The position numbers and the translations under genes were made by a program. Shown piece after piece: positions 24,159-34,224 of a stretch of 41,176 nt of DNA. Source of the stretch: a virus; IMG/VR virus record IMGVR_UViG_3300036770_003412, positions 1 through 41,176 of that record. One strand, given 5' to 3'. Numbering within the stretch: position 1 is the first letter of the stretch; every line of letters begins with the position of its first letter. Under the pieces are notes generated by a model, which saw only the letters and a program-made list of their open reading frames with translations, did not search any database and was not told where the DNA came from.

Positions 24159-24704
24159 CTACCTCCGACCCCGCTGAGTGTCCAGTTGAGTGTTCGCCTG
24201 TCTTGGGGATAACCTGATAATTCCAAAATGGACCGCGAGGGCGGTGAGAGCCTTCCGCAGGCGCCGGGTGCAGTTTACGCCCTCATCGAACACACACACG
24301 GAAATCAGCAGATCTGCGTAGGGCCTCACAGAAGCCTCTAGGAGGGCCGTACGCAGGCGAAGCGCGTCGCCGCTACCCTGATACCCCTCGACCCCTTTTC
24401 GCCCGTCTACGCGCTCCAGAGAGGCTCCAGAGGCCCTTGCAAAGCCACGGGACCCAAAAGCGCGGTCCCAGAGCGTCCGAAGCAGGTCGCCAGCCTGGTG
24501 CTGCTCCGGCGTGATGGAGCGCAGGCGGAGGTACTTCGCGAGGCGGTCAGGGGTGCGGACCCGGACCCGCTTCGCGCGGAGGTTGTTGGGATCGAGGCGC
24601 TCAACCTCGAATTCGTCGTGCGTGGCGCGGTAGGTGTTCACGGTCTCGAACACCTCGGGTGTGCGCTTGGGTCGCTTGGTCGTAGACCTCGGTCGTGAAG
24701 GCAT
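24159..24704 (-). CDS. Hypothetical protein, last gene of the early leftward unit
   Basis: This 181-residue product starts MPSRPRSTTKRPKRTPEVFETVNTY. ATG 24704 has AAGGA ten bases upstream. A longer open frame reaches 24917 but translates poly-A as Lys runs and is probably not used. The N-terminus is basic. The middle and C-terminus are helical (EQHQAGDLLRTLWDRAFG, LRLRTALLEASVRPYADLLISVCVFDEG, RLRKALTALAVHFGI), resembling DUF6456-like regulator folds, though not firmly. It lies between the candidate origin and the terminator. A regulatory role is possible. Confidence 0.65.
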   Translation of the reverse strand: MPSRPRSTTKRPKRTPEVFETVNTYRATHDEFEVERLDPNNLRAKRVRVRTPDRLAKYLRLRSITPEQHQAGDLLRTLWDRAFGSRGFARASGASLERVDGRKGVEGYQGSGDALRLRTALLEASVRPYADLLISVCVFDEGVNCTRRLRKALTALAVHFGIIRLSPRQANTQLDTQRGRR

Positions 24705-24871
24705 GGGTGACTGATCCTTTTTCTTAATCCACGTACTTGAACCGGAGAACTCGAAGGTAAGGCTCCAGAACCTCCCAAAATCTTTTTTTGTTTTTTTTGT
24801 TTTTTTTTTTTTTGGAAGGGGGGTTCTAGGGGGGAAACCAAAATTGGGGGGGGCAGAGCGGGGTTGTCGGG

Positions 24872-24914
24872 GGGTTGGCGCAGGGTTGGCGCAGGGTTGG
24901 CGCACCTTGGCGCA
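24872..24914. repeat. Iteron-like tandem 11-mers, cluster 1
   Basis: Three perfect consecutive copies of GGGTTGGCGCA (24872-24882, 24883-24893, 24894-24904) are followed by a partial copy CCTTGGCGCA (24905-24914). The period is 11 bp, one helical turn. Confidence 0.85.
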
Positions 24915-24999
24915 CACGTCGTTTTTTTGGCGGTTTTTCGGGGGGCCTTCGACGGGCTTCCCGACGGGTCTCTGAGGGGGTCTCGGAGAGGGGCTGGAG

Positions 25000-25032
25000 G
25001 GGTTGGCGCGGGGTTGACGCGGGGTTGGCGCA
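25000..25032. repeat. Iteron-like tandem 11-mers, cluster 2
   Basis: Copies GGGTTGGCGCG, GGGTTGACGCG and GGGTTGGCGCA run consecutively at 25000-25032 and share the unit of cluster 1, about 95 bp away. The last copy ends two bases before the helicase stop. Confidence 0.8.
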
Positions 25033-25034
25033 CC

Positions 25035-26183
25035 TCATGACCCGACCCCATTTTCCTGCTCGTAGCGCAGCCAGTTCGGCCTGATGCAGAGGCGCGTCTT
25101 GCGGTCCGCGGTCCTGACCGAGACGACCTCGAACTGTCCCGCATCGACCAGCGACTGGCACATGTCGATCAGCCTACCACTCGGTAGAGCCTTCCACATG
25201 GCGTCGTGGGCACGCAACTGGTGGGCCAGGTGCGTCTTGGCCTGTGGGTCCTTGGAGAGGGTAAAGCCGCGGCGGATGAGCGTGCATGCCGCGTCGATCA
25301 TCCTCTCCCTCAGCTCCTCGTCCGACATGACGCTGCCCGGCGCCTCGCTCGCCGGCTTGAAGACGCCCTCGTCCCAGACAATGCGCAGTTTTTCCCCCTT
25401 GGGGCCGTAGTTCGACTTCATGAACTTGAGGGACCGCTCATTCGTGGGCATCTCGTCGCCCTCCTCGTCGTATTTTTTGACTGAGGTGAGGTACATGCGC
25501 GAGCGGACGGAGTTGTTCCAGGCCGTTGACCCGGACAGGCCGGTCCCCGACTTCATCCCCTCGACGGATGGGTGCTGCGTGATGATGACGTTGCCGCGCG
25601 TGGGCTCCATCAGGGCGCGCAACCTTTGGACAAAGGTCCGCACCTGCTCACGATCGATCTCCAGGCCCGAGAACGTGTCTGCTGCCGTGTCGATGATGAG
25701 GACCTCGATCTGCTCTGCCTCGACGATCTGCTCGATCTGGCGATAGAGGTCGGTCACGGCCCCGATGCTGGTCTTGCGGTCAAAGCGCATGAGGGTGTTG
25801 TTGCCCCCGACCCGGCTGAGGATGGTCATGCTGTCCTTCAAGTGACTATAGGTGCAGCCGTAGTAGTTACAAATAGCCCTCAAGCGGCGATTGATCTCCT
25901 CCGGGTCGTCCTCGCAATACAATCCGAGCGACCTCACGGATCGGTTGGTTGTATCGACACCGATCCACGGCTGGCCGAGCGCCAGGGCGACCTGGAGCTG
26001 GAGCATGAGGAGGCTCTTGCCGAGGCCTCCGTCGCCAGCGAAGATGGTGGAGGAGTTCCTTGTCAGGACGCCGGGGACAATCCAGTCTCGCGGCGTCTCC
26101 TTGCCGTCGAAGGCGTCAAAGTCGAACTTGTCATCCCCGATCGGCGTGATCCTGTCCCCTCCCATTGTGTAGACGTTGCTCAT
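25035..26183 (-). CDS. RepA-like replicative helicase (AAA ATPase)
   Basis: This 382-residue protein starts MSNVYTMGGDRITPIGDDKF. Walker A is FAGDGGLGKS (Lys56, Ser57) and Walker B is VLIIDTAADTF. A sensor region NVIITQHPS and a GTGLSGSTAWNNSVRSRMYL segment follow, all typical of AAA_25 RSF1010 RepA-type hexameric helicases. The C-terminal 100 residues (SDEELRERMIDAACTLI, HDAMWKALPSGRLI) look like a winged-helix accessory domain. ATG 26183 overlaps the primase stop as ATGA. The frame is open upstream to 26780, but that part is a shadow of the primase gene. It probably unwinds phage DNA at the adjacent origin. Confidence 0.9.
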   Translation of the reverse strand: MSNVYTMGGDRITPIGDDKFDFDAFDGKETPRDWIVPGVLTRNSSTIFAGDGGLGKSLLMLQLQVALALGQPWIGVDTTNRSVRSLGLYCEDDPEEINRRLRAICNYYGCTYSHLKDSMTILSRVGGNNTLMRFDRKTSIGAVTDLYRQIEQIVEAEQIEVLIIDTAADTFSGLEIDREQVRTFVQRLRALMEPTRGNVIITQHPSVEGMKSGTGLSGSTAWNNSVRSRMYLTSVKKYDEEGDEMPTNERSLKFMKSNYGPKGEKLRIVWDEGVFKPASEAPGSVMSDEELRERMIDAACTLIRRGFTLSKDPQAKTHLAHQLRAHDAMWKALPSGRLIDMCQSLVDAGQFEVVSVRTADRKTRLCIRPNWLRYEQENGVGS

Positions 26184-27088
26184 GCGCGTTGCCTCTCTTG
26201 GATGACGTCGTTGAAGTCGCTGTATTGCCCCTTGTGGTGCACGTTGGGTGGCATGACATCGACCCTGAGGCCGGGCCGCTCGTAGGTGTCGGCGGCATCG
26301 AAAGCGGCCTCCATCCCGACCTCGCCGGCATCCGCAAAAATAATGAGGCTCTCGACGCTTTTCGGGATGTGCAGCTTTCCAAGGCGATTGGCAGCGAGCG
26401 TCGCCCAGACGGGGATGTGGTAGAGCTGGGACGCGGAGAGGGCCGTCTCGACGCCCTCGGCGATGCCCATCATTGACCGCGGCTGGCGACCAAGGCGCAC
26501 GGCGCCATTGCCCATCGGGCCGATCGTCATCTTCGCGGGCTTGACGTCGGCCTTCTTTTCGCCGCCATGGTCGAGGTAGGTCCTCTGGATGGCGGTGACG
26601 GTCCCTGCCCCGTCCGTCACGGCGGCGATCATGGCCGGCAAGACGGACTTGGAAGGGGCGTGCAGGATCGCCGGCGCGAAGCGAAGGGCATCTGGCCATC
26701 CAATGATGGGCCTCTTGATCGCGCGGCTCAGTAGGTAGGCCTCGCCGAGCGTCCCGCCGATCGGATGGGCAGCGTTCCAAATGGAACGCGCCATCTCCAT
26801 TCTCACGCGGTCGTCAGACTGGACGATGCCGTCGTGCGGTAACGTTACCCGACCCGGATAGCTCGGGTCTGGACGCGCCTCTCCCGTCCAGAGGTTGCGC
26901 GCGCGCAGGGCGTCGATGACGTCCCGCTGCGAGCATCCTGCGTGGCAAAAGACGAGCGGCCTGCCGTCGCGCGTCTGCGAGACCGACAGGCTCGGCGAGC
27001 GGTCTTCGTGGGCCGGGCAGCGGACGGTTCCGCCCGACCTGACCCAGCGACCGCCGAGGCCAATGACAATCTCCCTAGCTGACGTCAT
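26180..27088 (-). CDS. DNA primase, CHC2-type zinc finger plus TOPRIM
   Basis: This 302-residue product carries an N-terminal zinc-binding pattern (Cys24, His27, Cys48, Cys52) within RCPAHEDRSPSLSV and VFCHAGCSQRDVIDAL, as in CHC2-type primases. A central HPIGGTLGEAYLLSRAI segment and AAVTDGAGTVTAIQRTYLD follow. The C-terminal TOPRIM domain has GIAEGVETALSA (Glu211) and LIIFADAGEVG (Asp253). Primases of this layout work with RepA-like helicases in plasmids and phages, and the helicase gene overlaps the primase 3' end by four bases. Its start overlaps the stop of a 58-residue gene. Confidence 0.9.
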   Translation of the reverse strand: MTSAREIVIGLGGRWVRSGGTVRCPAHEDRSPSLSVSQTRDGRPLVFCHAGCSQRDVIDALRARNLWTGEARPDPSYPGRVTLPHDGIVQSDDRVRMEMARSIWNAAHPIGGTLGEAYLLSRAIKRPIIGWPDALRFAPAILHAPSKSVLPAMIAAVTDGAGTVTAIQRTYLDHGGEKKADVKPAKMTIGPMGNGAVRLGRQPRSMMGIAEGVETALSASQLYHIPVWATLAANRLGKLHIPKSVESLIIFADAGEVGMEAAFDAADTYERPGLRVDVMPPNVHHKGQYSDFNDVIQERQRA

Positions 27089-27795: not shown

Positions 27796-28107
27796 TCAGG
27801 TCTGACGGACGTGGATATTCAGCATTGCGCGGAGGATTTTTTTCTTGAGGCGCCAGACGGGCGTCTCGAAACCCTTCACGTCCTCGTAAATGCGCTTGCC
27901 ATTTTCGAAATAAACGAAGTCGGCCTTCCACCAGAAAAGGAGGTGGCCGTCGTGCGTGACGTCCACGCGCACTTGACGCTCGAGGTTCTTGATGTGTCCC
28001 CGCTTCTCGAGCAGTTTCAGTTCGATGTAGCGCGCGGCCTCTTTCTTCGAGTCGAAGGTGATACCATCGACGATCGTCTTCTTCGCGTTGTACTTATTCC
28101 GCGGCAT
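27796..28107 (-). CDS. DUF1064-like nuclease (PD-(D/E)XK type)
   Basis: This 103-residue protein starts MPRNKYNAKKTIVDGITFDS and continues KKEAARYIELKLLEKRGHIKNLERQ, then KADFVYFENGKRIYEDVKG. This pattern, with Asp/Glu and Lys residues in a DxVYFENGK-EDVKG core, is the DUF1064 family, related to PD-(D/E)XK nucleases such as Holliday-junction resolvase-like enzymes. GGAGG lies six bases before ATG 28107. The gene overlaps the 3' end of the DnaA-like gene by 14 bases. A role in processing replication or recombination intermediates is inferred. Confidence 0.85.
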   Translation of the reverse strand: MPRNKYNAKKTIVDGITFDSKKEAARYIELKLLEKRGHIKNLERQVRVDVTHDGHLLFWWKADFVYFENGKRIYEDVKGFETPVWRLKKKILRAMLNIHVRQT

Positions 28108-28483
28108 GCTGCGCCTCCGGAGCGTGTCGCGAAGCGTTGCAGGTGCAAGGGATTTCGTTATGTCCCCGCTTCTTTCGGGGCGCATAGCTGGTCGCATTGA
28201 TCGGTCGCGTTGCGGCCTTGGCGAACGCATGATGCACCGCCGTCGTATGATCAATCTCGAAGGCGCGCGCGATTTTTAGGTATTCCCAGCCGCAGCGATA
28301 GCGCAGGGCGCGTATGATGTCCCCGCGAACGCGGCTGATGCGCGCGACGCGGCTCAGTCTGCCGTTTGGCCCCTTCTCGGTGACCTCGCGCCAGGAGACG
28401 GGATTGCCTGTCGCGGCGTGCCACCACAGCACGTCCTCGATCGCCTGCCTCGTTTCAGTCTTGCAGCACATGAGATTGAGCAA
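28094..28483 (-). CDS. DnaA domain IV-like DNA-binding protein, TTG start
   Basis: This 129-residue product contains GWEYLKIARAFEIDHTTAVHHAFAKA (about residues 65-90), close to the DnaA-box recognition helix-turn-helix with its DHTTVLHA signature. It lacks the AAA ATPase domains of DnaA. The TTG at 28483 is seven bases from a GGAGG, while an in-frame ATG at 28471 is 19 bases away, so TTG is preferred. It is the first gene of the leftward early unit. It may be a phage replication initiator or a sequestering competitor of host DnaA (inference). Confidence 0.75.
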   Translation of the reverse strand: MLNLMCCKTETRQAIEDVLWWHAATGNPVSWREVTEKGPNGRLSRVARISRVRGDIIRALRYRCGWEYLKIARAFEIDHTTAVHHAFAKAATRPINATSYAPRKKRGHNEIPCTCNASRHAPEAQHAAE

Positions 28484-28601: not shown

Positions 28602-29306
28602 ATGACGACGTCTAAAAGTAGCGCCGGGTTTAAACTTCGGGTTCTGATGCAGCGCGCGGATATGAGCCTGCGCGAGCTGGCGCGGCGCGTCGGGTACGCG
28701 CACGGATCGGGGGTGCAGAGACACCTTGCGCAGATCGCTGAGACACTGGATCTCGAGGTCGCGCTCAAGTTCGCGGAGGCCTTGCAGGGTCAGGGGCATC
28801 CACCCATCACGCACAGAGAGGTGATGATGGCCCTGACGGGCCGTGAGGTCTCGCCCAGCGATAAACGGCGCGCCCAGACGAGTATTCCGATCGTCGGATC
28901 TGTCCAGGCGGGCCACTGGCGCCCGGCCCAGCAGCGCGAGGCGGATGAGGCGCGATCGGTCCCGTATGTCGCCCCGCCGGCCTGGCGTTCAATGCCCGTC
29001 GTCGCCTTTGATCTGCACGGTCATAGCATGGACCGGGTCTATCCCGCCGGCAGCGTCCTCCTCGCCGTCTCTTACAACGACATCGGTCGGGACCCGAGGC
29101 CCGGCGAGCGTGTCATTGTCCAGCGTTATCGGCATGATGAGGTCGAGGCATCGTGCAAAGAGCTTCGATCCGGGCCGGGCGGTCTTGAGCTATGGCCCCT
29201 CTCGACGCGGCCCGAGCATCAGGATCCCCTACCCGTCTCCAAGAAAGGCGAGGAGGTGCGGATTACGCACCGCGTCGTCGGCGCGATCGTTTACGAACCC
29301 CTCTAA
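28602..29306 (+). CDS. CI/LexA-type prophage repressor (HTH plus S24 peptidase)
   Basis: This 234-residue protein has an N-terminal Cro/CI-type helix-turn-helix (about 12-62, MSLRELARRVGYAHGSGVQRHL). A linker follows, with an Ala-Gly cleavage site (VQAGHW, 103-104). The C-terminal S24 peptidase-like dimerisation domain has catalytic Ser142 in HGHSMDRVYPAGS and a candidate catalytic Lys186 in CKEL. This layout is that of self-cleaving repressors inactivated in SOS response, so UV or DNA-damage induction is expected. It lies between the leftward early genes and the rightward operon. It is the switch for lysogeny. Confidence 0.92.
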   Translation: MTTSKSSAGFKLRVLMQRADMSLRELARRVGYAHGSGVQRHLAQIAETLDLEVALKFAEALQGQGHPPITHREVMMALTGREVSPSDKRRAQTSIPIVGSVQAGHWRPAQQREADEARSVPYVAPPAWRSMPVVAFDLHGHSMDRVYPAGSVLLAVSYNDIGRDPRPGERVIVQRYRHDEVEASCKELRSGPGGLELWPLSTRPEHQDPLPVSKKGEEVRITHRVVGAIVYEPL

Positions 29307-32170: not shown

Positions 32171-32361
32171 TTTACAATGACGAAAACCCTCACCCTGTCG
32201 TCATCCGCTACCGCACGCGCGGCTGGTCGCACCCTTGGTACGACCGCTTCGAGGAGCGTGCCGCTATTATGGAGTACGACGGCGGCATGTCGCGCGAAGA
32301 CGCTGAGCGAGAGGCTTACAGGATTGTGTTGGCTGAGATGAAAGAGGCCCGAATGTCATGA
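32167..32361 (+). CDS. Hypothetical small protein, GTG start
   Basis: This 64-residue product starts at GTG 32167 (overlapping the previous TGA as GTGA) and contains IRYRTRGWSHPWYDRFEERAAIMEYDGGMSREDAEREAYRI. The RAAIMEYDGGM-R-DAE segment is met in other phage and mobile-element proteins of unknown function. Its stop overlaps the next ATG as ATGA. No catalytic motif is seen. Confidence 0.62.
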   Translation: MIYNDENPHPVVIRYRTRGWSHPWYDRFEERAAIMEYDGGMSREDAEREAYRIVLAEMKEARMS

Positions 32362-32912
32362 CCGACGCCATTGTCGTTTGGTTTTCCTGTGGCGCTGCGA
32401 GCGCCGTGGCGGCGAAGTTGACCGTAGAGAAGTACGGTTCTGAGCGCGTGCGCGTCGTCAATTCGCCGGTACTGGAGGAACACCCTGACAATCGACGGTT
32501 TTTGGCGGACGTACAGAAGTGGGTGGGCGTTGCAATAGAAACCGCAGTCAACCCGGAATACCCATCAACATCAGCGCGCGAGGTGTGGGACAAGCGTCGC
32601 TTTATGTCGTCGCCTTACGGCGCGCCGTGTACCGTTGAGCTGAAGAAAGAAGCTAGGCGGCATTGGGAAAAAAGCAATCCAGTGGCCTGGCACGTCTTGG
32701 GGTTCACGGTTGATGAGCGGCACCGTCATGAGCGGTTTGTGCAGACTGAGCGCAGCAATGTATTGCCAGTTTTAATTGATGCCGGATTGCGAAAGGCAGA
32801 CTGCCTTGCAGTGCTGCGGGAGGCTGGAATCAGGCCCCCCGCCATTTACAGCTTGGGCTACCCAAACGCGAATTGCATAGGCTGCGTGAAGGCTACAAGT
32901 CCCGCGTATTAG
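32358..32912 (+). pseudogene. PAPS reductase-like phage protein, amber-interrupted
   Basis: This frame starts ATG 32358 with an altered PP-loop (WFSCGAASAV) and a SSPYGAPCTVELKK segment, then LGYPNANCIGCVKATSPAY. It stops at TAG 32910-32912, where related proteins have Trp (YWN). The same frame stays open for 65 more codons to TGA 33108-33110 and encodes NLVRRTFPDVFTERAKQSRR, then a LDELPATEGGQ segment and ECGVFCEE, the usual C-terminus with the second Cys pair. Thus a single TGG to TAG change splits a 250-residue protein. These ATP-pyrophosphatase-family proteins bind Fe-S or adenylate chemistry in phages, and function is uncertain. The truncated 184-residue product probably is inactive unless the amber is suppressed. 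Confidence 0.85.
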
Positions 32913-33110: not shown

Positions 33111-33433
33111 GAATGCTCACCGTGAAGGACGTCGCGAGACGCTGGAAGTGTCCCGCGAGTACGGTGCGAGCGCACATTCGAAGCGGCTTGCGCGCGACGC
33201 GCACCGGGCGGAACTATCTCGTCTCGATCGACGAGGTGGTGAGATGGGAACGTTCAGACTTGGAACGCATCGCGGGCGCCCTTGCGTTATCTGGCGTGGC
33301 GCAGACGGCAAGCGCGTCCGGCACCCCCTCAAATCCCTTCGTGAGCCTGACCGTCACGTTGAAGCGGCGCGATGGGTCGCAAGTCAGGAGCGAGTGGATG
33401 CTGGACGCGGACAGCGCATCGGAGGGATCGTAA
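33107..33433 (+). CDS. Excisionase/AlpA-like helix-turn-helix protein
   Basis: This 108-residue product starts MRMLTVKDVARRWKCPASTV and continues RAHIRSGLRATRTGRNYLVSIDEVVRWE, a MerR/excisionase-type winged helix of the HTH_17 family. Such proteins regulate or direct excisive recombination. The last 63 residues are low in recognisable structure and are encoded in DNA that also codes the integrase N-terminus in another frame. ATG 33107 overlaps the upstream TGA. The order xis-like, int, attP is standard. Confidence 0.8.
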   Translation: MRMLTVKDVARRWKCPASTVRAHIRSGLRATRTGRNYLVSIDEVVRWERSDLERIAGALALSGVAQTASASGTPSNPFVSLTVTLKRRDGSQVRSEWMLDADSASEGS

Positions 33434-34224
33434 CGTCCTACATCCGCTGGCTCGAGGAGCAAGGGGCGCCTAGCGCCAGGACGGCCCGTCATCAGTGGGC
33501 GACCGCCAGCGGCTTCTTCGACGATCGGGAGGCAATCGACCAGCACGACGTGGACGTCTTCGTCTCGCGCCGTCGCGCTGCCGGGATCTCCGACGAGACG
33601 ATCCGCCGGCAGCTCGGCATCCTGCGCGCGGCATTGCGCCGGCATGAGCGATCGGGGGGATCTCGGGCGCCTCTCATTTCCCTGCCGCCGCCGGGCAGGC
33701 CGCGAGAGCGGAAATTGAGCCGCGAGGAGCTGTCGAGGCTGGTCGAGGCCTGCGAGGAGCCTCACGTACGCCTCGCGGTCGAGATCCTGGCCGGGACGGG
33801 CCTGCGCGTGGGGAGGGTCCTCGCCCTGAAATGGGCCGACGTGGACCTGAGACGCGGGGAGATTCGATTAGAGACTCGCAGGCGGGCGAAGGGGGCTCCT
33901 CGGGTACTACCCCTGCCCCGGACCCTGATCGAGTCTCTGCGGGCCTCTGAGAGGGTTTGCGACCACGTCGTGGCCTACGATGGGAGGCCGGTCGCGTCCA
34001 TCCGGAGGGGGTTCAGGACGGCGTGCGATCGTGCCGGGCTGGGACCGGACGTCGTCCCGCACACGATCCGTCATTCCGTGGCGACGATCCTGCTCGATGA
34101 GGGCGTGCCGCTCACGGTCGTGAGTCAGCTCCTGGGCCACTCGTCGTCGCTCGTGACGGAACGCGTCTATGCGCGTCACACGGCGCAGGCGCTGGCGCAG
34201 GCGACGAGACGTCTGGAGAGGTAG
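33244..34224 (+). CDS. int: Tyrosine integrase
   Basis: This 326-residue protein starts MGTFRLGTHRGRPCVIWRGA, an arm-binding domain followed by a core-binding domain (about 55-150) and a catalytic domain. Catalytic residues are Arg188 (GTGLRVG), His273 and Arg276 (PHTIRHSV), His299 (LLGHSS) and Tyr309 (ERVYARHT). All are present, so it should be active. ATG 33244 lies within the excisionase-like gene (190-bp overlap, other frame). A longer frame back to 33148 exists, but it would overlap even more and lacks a good ribosome-binding site. It recombines attP at 34331-34377 with a tRNA-Val gene. Confidence 0.93.
   Translation: MGTFRLGTHRGRPCVIWRGADGKRVRHPLKSLREPDRHVEAARWVASQERVDAGRGQRIGGIVTSYIRWLEEQGAPSARTARHQWATASGFFDDREAIDQHDVDVFVSRRRAAGISDETIRRQLGILRAALRRHERSGGSRAPLISLPPPGRPRERKLSREELSRLVEACEEPHVRLAVEILAGTGLRVGRVLALKWADVDLRRGEIRLETRRRAKGAPRVLPLPRTLIESLRASERVCDHVVAYDGRPVASIRRGFRTACDRAGLGPDVVPHTIRHSVATILLDEGVPLTVVSQLLGHSSSLVTERVYARHTAQALAQATRRLER

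Follow-up and report, generated by a model that had tools for sequence, protein, structure and literature searches.

A candidate replication origin with phased iterons directly downstream of a RepA-like helicase gene in a temperate phage and its relatives

Judging from sequence comparison, positions 24705-25034 of the window (the whole 41,176-base stretch analysed, a virus record) are very probably the start site of phage DNA copying. This candidate replication origin, proposed in the original prediction, was strongly supported: in dozens of phages and prophages, the corresponding position next to a homologous helicase gene is occupied by phased iterons that differ in sequence, and the global minimum of cumulative GC skew in the window lies beside the segment, at 24469. 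The segment is likely to be an oriV at which a RepA helicase that itself includes a winged helix would do the job of both RepA and RepC, binding the iterons downstream of its own gene before opening, loading and priming. We infer these four steps (binding, strand opening, helicase loading and priming) from the arrangement described below.

Structure of the origin segment and its operon

The gene content of the record is that of a temperate phage: the head genes (portal, scaffold, major head and DNA-ejection proteins) are P22-like, and there is an integrase gene (33148-34224) as well as an S24-type repressor gene (28602-29306). A phosphoadenosine phosphosulfate reductase-like gene (32358-32912, plus strand; phrog_424, E 9e-37), which may be an auxiliary metabolic or a DNA-modification gene, is also present. 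The replication operon is on the minus strand and is ordered as follows: a DUF1064 resolvase-like gene, the primase gene, the helicase gene, the origin segment, a gene starting at 24704, an HNH nuclease gene and the terminase gene. As predicted, a primase gene is close by: it encodes a DnaG-like protein (DUF7146 and Toprim_3; 26180-27088, minus strand) and abuts the helicase gene, overlapping its start by 4 bp. A RepA-like helicase gene had rightly been placed beside the repeats, and only its extent was corrected, to 25035-26183 (minus strand), which encodes a RepA-type replicative helicase of 382 aa (AAA_25, RecA-fold, E 6e-32). A 581-aa open frame was rejected as the helicase. The homologue search with this frame was empty because the 200 residues at its N-terminus are translated out of frame. 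The origin region is closed downstream by a gene of unknown function (24159-24704, minus strand; 181-aa product) with its ATG at 24704. From this gene order, the 330-base segment is therefore directly 3' of the helicase stop codon.

Read along the coding strand, the stop is followed by array A, a C-rich spacer, array B, a C-run element, an A-tract and, in inverted orientation, a partner to part of the C-run element. Six 9-bp iteron cores and two degenerate copies were found at 11-bp spacing in two clusters 106 bp apart, which confirmed the predicted tandem iterons in two clusters as 3 + 3 units with an 11-bp period plus the two degenerate ones. The unit reads GCGCCAACCCC on the coding (minus) strand. 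Array A (24999-25031, minus strand) consists of three 11-bp units of this type and begins 3 bp past the helicase stop. The spacer (24916-24998) contains an A7/A5 patch. Array B (24861-24915, minus strand) has three exact 11-bp units (24872-24904) flanked by the degenerate ones (24861-24871 and 24905-24915). All iterons of the window are located between the helicase stop and the ATG of the following same-strand gene. The plus-strand core GGTTGGCGC occurs exactly five times in the 41-kb window, each time in the segment, together with one GGTTGACGC, and all are in a single orientation. When the window was scanned for copies of one 9-mer family per 330-bp stretch, the segment reached 7 and the maximum elsewhere was 5. 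The segment had no match in Rfam, and a distant blastn search against phage records returned a low-complexity hit only.

G-runs had also been predicted, five in number; six of at least 5 bases are present on the plus strand (starting at 24818, 24829, 24846, 24869, 24940 and 24976). The longest run of G or C anywhere in the window is the G8 at 24846. On the coding strand they are C-runs (CCCCCCTAGAACCCCCC). The C-run element CCCCCCTAGAACCCCCC at 24818-24834 (minus strand) is the likely counterpart of an element of the relatives described below, with a G that breaks the strict C4+[AT]3-7C4+ pattern and with all iterons of the window to one side. Two plus-strand matches to four runs of at least three G overlap the segment, at 24846 and 24990. 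Since the relatives conserve paired C-runs (a C-run/TATA/C-run element) and not the canonical four-run G4 motif, no quadruplex is claimed. The poly-T tracts of the prediction are present as a poly-A/T tract at 24783-24813, a candidate unwinding element that is the most AT-rich 30-mer of the window (28/30). This tract is in the loop of an inverted repeat, AGAACCTCCCAAAA / TTTGGAAGGGGGGTTCT (24767-24827), seen in the sequence and in the DNA fold.

The region parts two genes of the same strand, and phased operators could look alike, so that it might be read as operators or a terminator controlling transcription of the downstream operon. This reading is highly improbable: no intrinsic-terminator-like U tract follows the folded hairpins, the repeats persist in relatives despite a widely varying distance to the terminase operon, and phased, partly inverted iterons with a C-run/TATA element suit an origin better. 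GC skew had been suggested as a check on the origin, and the minimum of the window does adjoin the segment. Across 13 phages, the agreement between skew minimum and origin site was weak (KS p 0.05, Fisher p 0.03), and as base-composition evidence in favour of an origin it is suggestive only.

Repeats and paired C-runs at the helicase stops of relatives

A total of 121 homologous helicase loci were collected, 114 of them from scans of viral and genome collections, and clustered at 70% identity, giving 76 non-redundant clusters with sufficient sequence past the helicase gene. Around each helicase stop, 400 bases were taken as the target and scored for copies of one 9-mer family. Controls were 4615 windows of the same loci and, separately, 185 other 3' ends of long ORFs there. 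At least 7 copies were found in 27 of the 76 targets, compared with 0.2% of the control windows (Wilcoxon p 4e-11) and 0/185 other gene ends (Fisher p 7e-17). At least 6 copies were reached in 33/76 targets and at none of the 185 gene ends, and 32 of the 76 targets exceeded every control of their own locus. The 9-mer count is below 5 in about 33 of the 76 clusters, and some have no copies at all (L064, L019, L060).

The iteron motif is specific to the locus (TTCCAACCC, CTTCATCCC, CCTTCGAAC, ACTTCCGCA, TGCGGAACC, TGCGCTTAC, GGTGCAAC and others). A relative whose helicase is 47% identical (L003) likewise has 11-bp tandem repeats in this position, but of another sequence, ATGGACCCCCT, and seven copies of AAGTTGGCA are found at the RepA gene of Wolbachia phage WO (L009). 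Spacing between copies peaks at 10-12, 20-23, 32-35 and 43-46 bp, a pattern of helical phasing. In a search of plasmids, one 2-Mb Azospirillum record was found; the other matches were shorter and of the RepA family only.

The repeats of one subgroup (L004, L005, L007 and L008) are within the helicase ORF and are translated as a low-complexity Pro-rich tail. Coding repeats in related phages had been named in the original prediction as evidence against an origin; they do not refute it here because their position after the winged helix is kept. The in-ORF iterons (L004 2180-2400, L007 1680-1965, L005 360-730) encode a Pro/Ala-rich tail (APTPAPT) and are dual-use sequence. These translated repeats could also be taken to mean that the arrays are meaningless simple-sequence expansions, or sequence coding for protein tails, at the ends of genes. 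We give this next to no credence, as none of the other gene ends in the same loci reached 6 copies, and the 11-bp phasing, the conserved position and the changing sequence argue for selection on the repeats.

The terminase gene is 1-3 kb downstream in the window and in several relatives, and an HNH endonuclease gene adjoins it, an arrangement in keeping with a cos or pac packaging site recognized by terminase. The repeats, however, track the helicase. Seven iterons are at the helicase in L014, where the terminase is about 11 kb upstream, twelve in L034, where it is 12.6 kb downstream, and eight in L029, where it is 5.4 kb downstream; in the Wolbachia WO record, the terminase is at the opposite end. 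Together with the P22-like head genes of the phage in the window, these positions make a packaging site quite improbable.

A second element is shared by the origin regions of the relatives and consists of two C-runs split by TATA, ATA or TTATA. Among exact 7-mers, CCCCCTA was shared by 30 loci (0.2 expected) and ATACCCC by 28 (0.7 expected). The pattern C4+[AT]3-7C4+ was present in 31/76 targets and in 0/185 control ends (p 1e-19). Iterons before this element were in the same orientation in 136 cases and in the opposite one in 10; after it, 8 had the same and 27 the opposite orientation. The element is in a hairpin loop in L073, L069 and L059, and is itself a long palindrome in L064 and L057. 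An AT-rich unwinding patch was not general across the relatives (weak, p 0.03). An AT-rich word like CATTGATTT or TTGAAAT recurs in several relatives in the spacer between the clusters (for example at +112 from the helicase stop in L037, +92 in L067, +123 in L029 and +197 in L114) and is possibly a third origin element.

The helicase and the candidate iteron binder

When the helicase profile was compared with PDB sequences, the sole relative was RSF1010 RepA (E 7e-17). The predicted structure matched the same protein (1g8y) with a Z of 26.2 over residues 18-279, followed by DnaB at 20.6. The C-terminal 95 residues are predicted to form a winged helix, the candidate iteron binder (25077-25322, minus strand; model residues 289-370). 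In the AlphaFold model, residues 289-370 form three helices and a beta hairpin (H-H-H-beta-beta) with a pLDDT of about 95. When the domain was modelled alone, its top structural matches were almost all winged helices, many of them DNA-binding, with the SAMD1 WH as the best (Z 8.6). No sequence match was found between the profile of the fused tail and an IncQ RepC, and no gene is present between the helicase and the iterons in the window.

Seven RepA-type phage helicases with tails that do not match the winged-helix profile had no repeats at their stops. The tail of the Wolbachia WO RepA has no match to the tail profile, yet repeats follow the gene, and L004 shares the iteron core of the window and has a tail without detectable similarity to that of the window. 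In partial Mantel tests, iteron similarity was related to helicase core and winged helix alike (0.24 and 0.25, respectively), so the tail was not isolated as the determinant of specificity.

The original prediction had offered two iteron binders, the C-terminal domain of the helicase and a DnaA-like product. The former is favoured because it is a predicted winged helix, and the latter is disfavoured. The gene described as DnaA-domain-IV-like (28094-28483, minus strand) encodes a small HTH protein with a DHTTAVHHA motif that resembles DnaA domain IV by eye. Searching did not support the claim: no significant match to Bac_DnaA_C was obtained and the match to HTH_20 was weak (E 0.0075). The product is possibly a phage regulator. 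As a general iteron binder, a DnaA-like protein appears unlikely, since Bac_DnaA_C was found in just 2 of the 19 records searched, most of which bear iterons. An origin could also be bound by a separate small phage protein, in the manner of RepC or lambda O, for example the product of 28094-28483 or of 24159-24704. The occurrence of one iteron core with unrelated helicase tails and the correlation of iteron similarity with the core as well as the tail fit such a binder. We consider it unlikely given the rarity of Bac_DnaA_C, the anchoring of the repeats to the helicase stop across varied gene neighbourhoods and the predicted winged helix that the helicase has of its own.

Proposed mechanism and known systems

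With the helicase as its own iteron binder, the following sequence of events is proposed. The RepA-type hexameric helicase would be made with a winged helix on its C-terminus, and this domain would bind the 11-bp phased iterons just 3' of the helicase gene. Binding would gather helicase subunits and strain the DNA, the strands would open at the nearby C-run/AT element, and the helicase would load, after which the co-encoded DnaG-like primase would prime synthesis. The functional equivalent would be RSF1010 RepA (helicase) and RepC (iteron binder) as a single polypeptide.

In IncQ plasmids, the iterons are bound by RepC, unwinding is carried out by RepA and priming by RepB at ssiA/ssiB (PMC6925257). 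The phage system resembles that of IncQ RSF1010 in that both sequence and fold identify the helicase core as RepA, the iterons directly follow the initiator gene, and helicase, iterons and C-run hairpin form one module. It differs in that the helicase polypeptide carries the putative iteron-binding winged helix and no gene separates the helicase gene from the iterons, the primase is of the DnaG/Toprim type (DUF7146/Toprim) instead of RepB', and the iteron length is about 11 bp, compared with 20-22 bp in the plasmid. The C-run element is like the IncQ ssiA/ssiB sites in appearance only. An IncQ plasmid in the collection (L133, NZ_CP055587.1) has 22-bp iterons immediately after repC, with a separate iteron-binder gene. 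About 300 bases past its repC stop (2721), the oriV hairpin CCCCCCCCCACTGCTGCGCAGTAGGGGG resembles the phage C-run elements, and from this similarity of sequence a shared origin of the ssi-like sites and the C-run elements is possible.

SaPI Rep and SCCmec Cch2 have C-terminal domains that bind iterons just downstream of their own genes (PMC7581432). The phage helicase shares with them a C-terminal DNA-binding domain (here predicted) and iterons directly 3' of the gene; those proteins are 3'-5' AAA+/MCM-like, whereas it is RecA-fold and DnaB/RepA-like. In pRN1, the origin sits just downstream of the rep gene, and replicons of this type and phage BIP-1 combine prim/pol, an SF3 helicase and a winged helix with a stem-loop origin 3' of the gene (PMC4234260). 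Common features are a winged helix in the helicase protein and an origin that is immediately 3' and variable in sequence; unlike the phage system, the pRN1/BIP-1 group has an SF3 helicase, an AEP primase and a single long stem-loop in place of iteron arrays. The alpha protein of phage P4, a primase/helicase, is similar in that its C-terminal winged helix binds the ori iterons; it differs in being of the SF3 type, and the P4 ori is not known to be defined by lying immediately behind the gene. Literature searches for the arrangement in phages gave IncQ, SaPI Rep/Cch2 and pRN1-type replicons as the only parallels.

The loci may represent a widespread and apparently undescribed class of origins, mainly of alphaproteobacterial phages and prophages, a proposal to which we give about even chances. 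Its members would have a RepA-fold helicase that is its own initiator by virtue of a fused winged helix, fast-changing private iterons directly 3' of the gene, and a conserved core of the C-run/TATA/C-run type, usually with opposed iterons on its two sides, as the opening or priming site. In the papers searched, no description was found of such a class or of the origins of these phages and prophages, Wolbachia phage WO among them. If the proposal is true, the replication origins of many phages and prophages, that of phage WO among them, would be defined by sequence alone, with a simple rule for finding them: inspect the DNA just past the stop of a RepA-like helicase gene. A RecA-fold (DnaB/RepA-like) helicase equipped with a domain to bind the origin itself would amount to a natural RSF1010 RepA-RepC fusion, in which one could study how loading of this kind of helicase proceeds when initiator and loader are not separate proteins. 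Iterons private to each lineage could explain how co-resident prophages escape cross-replication.
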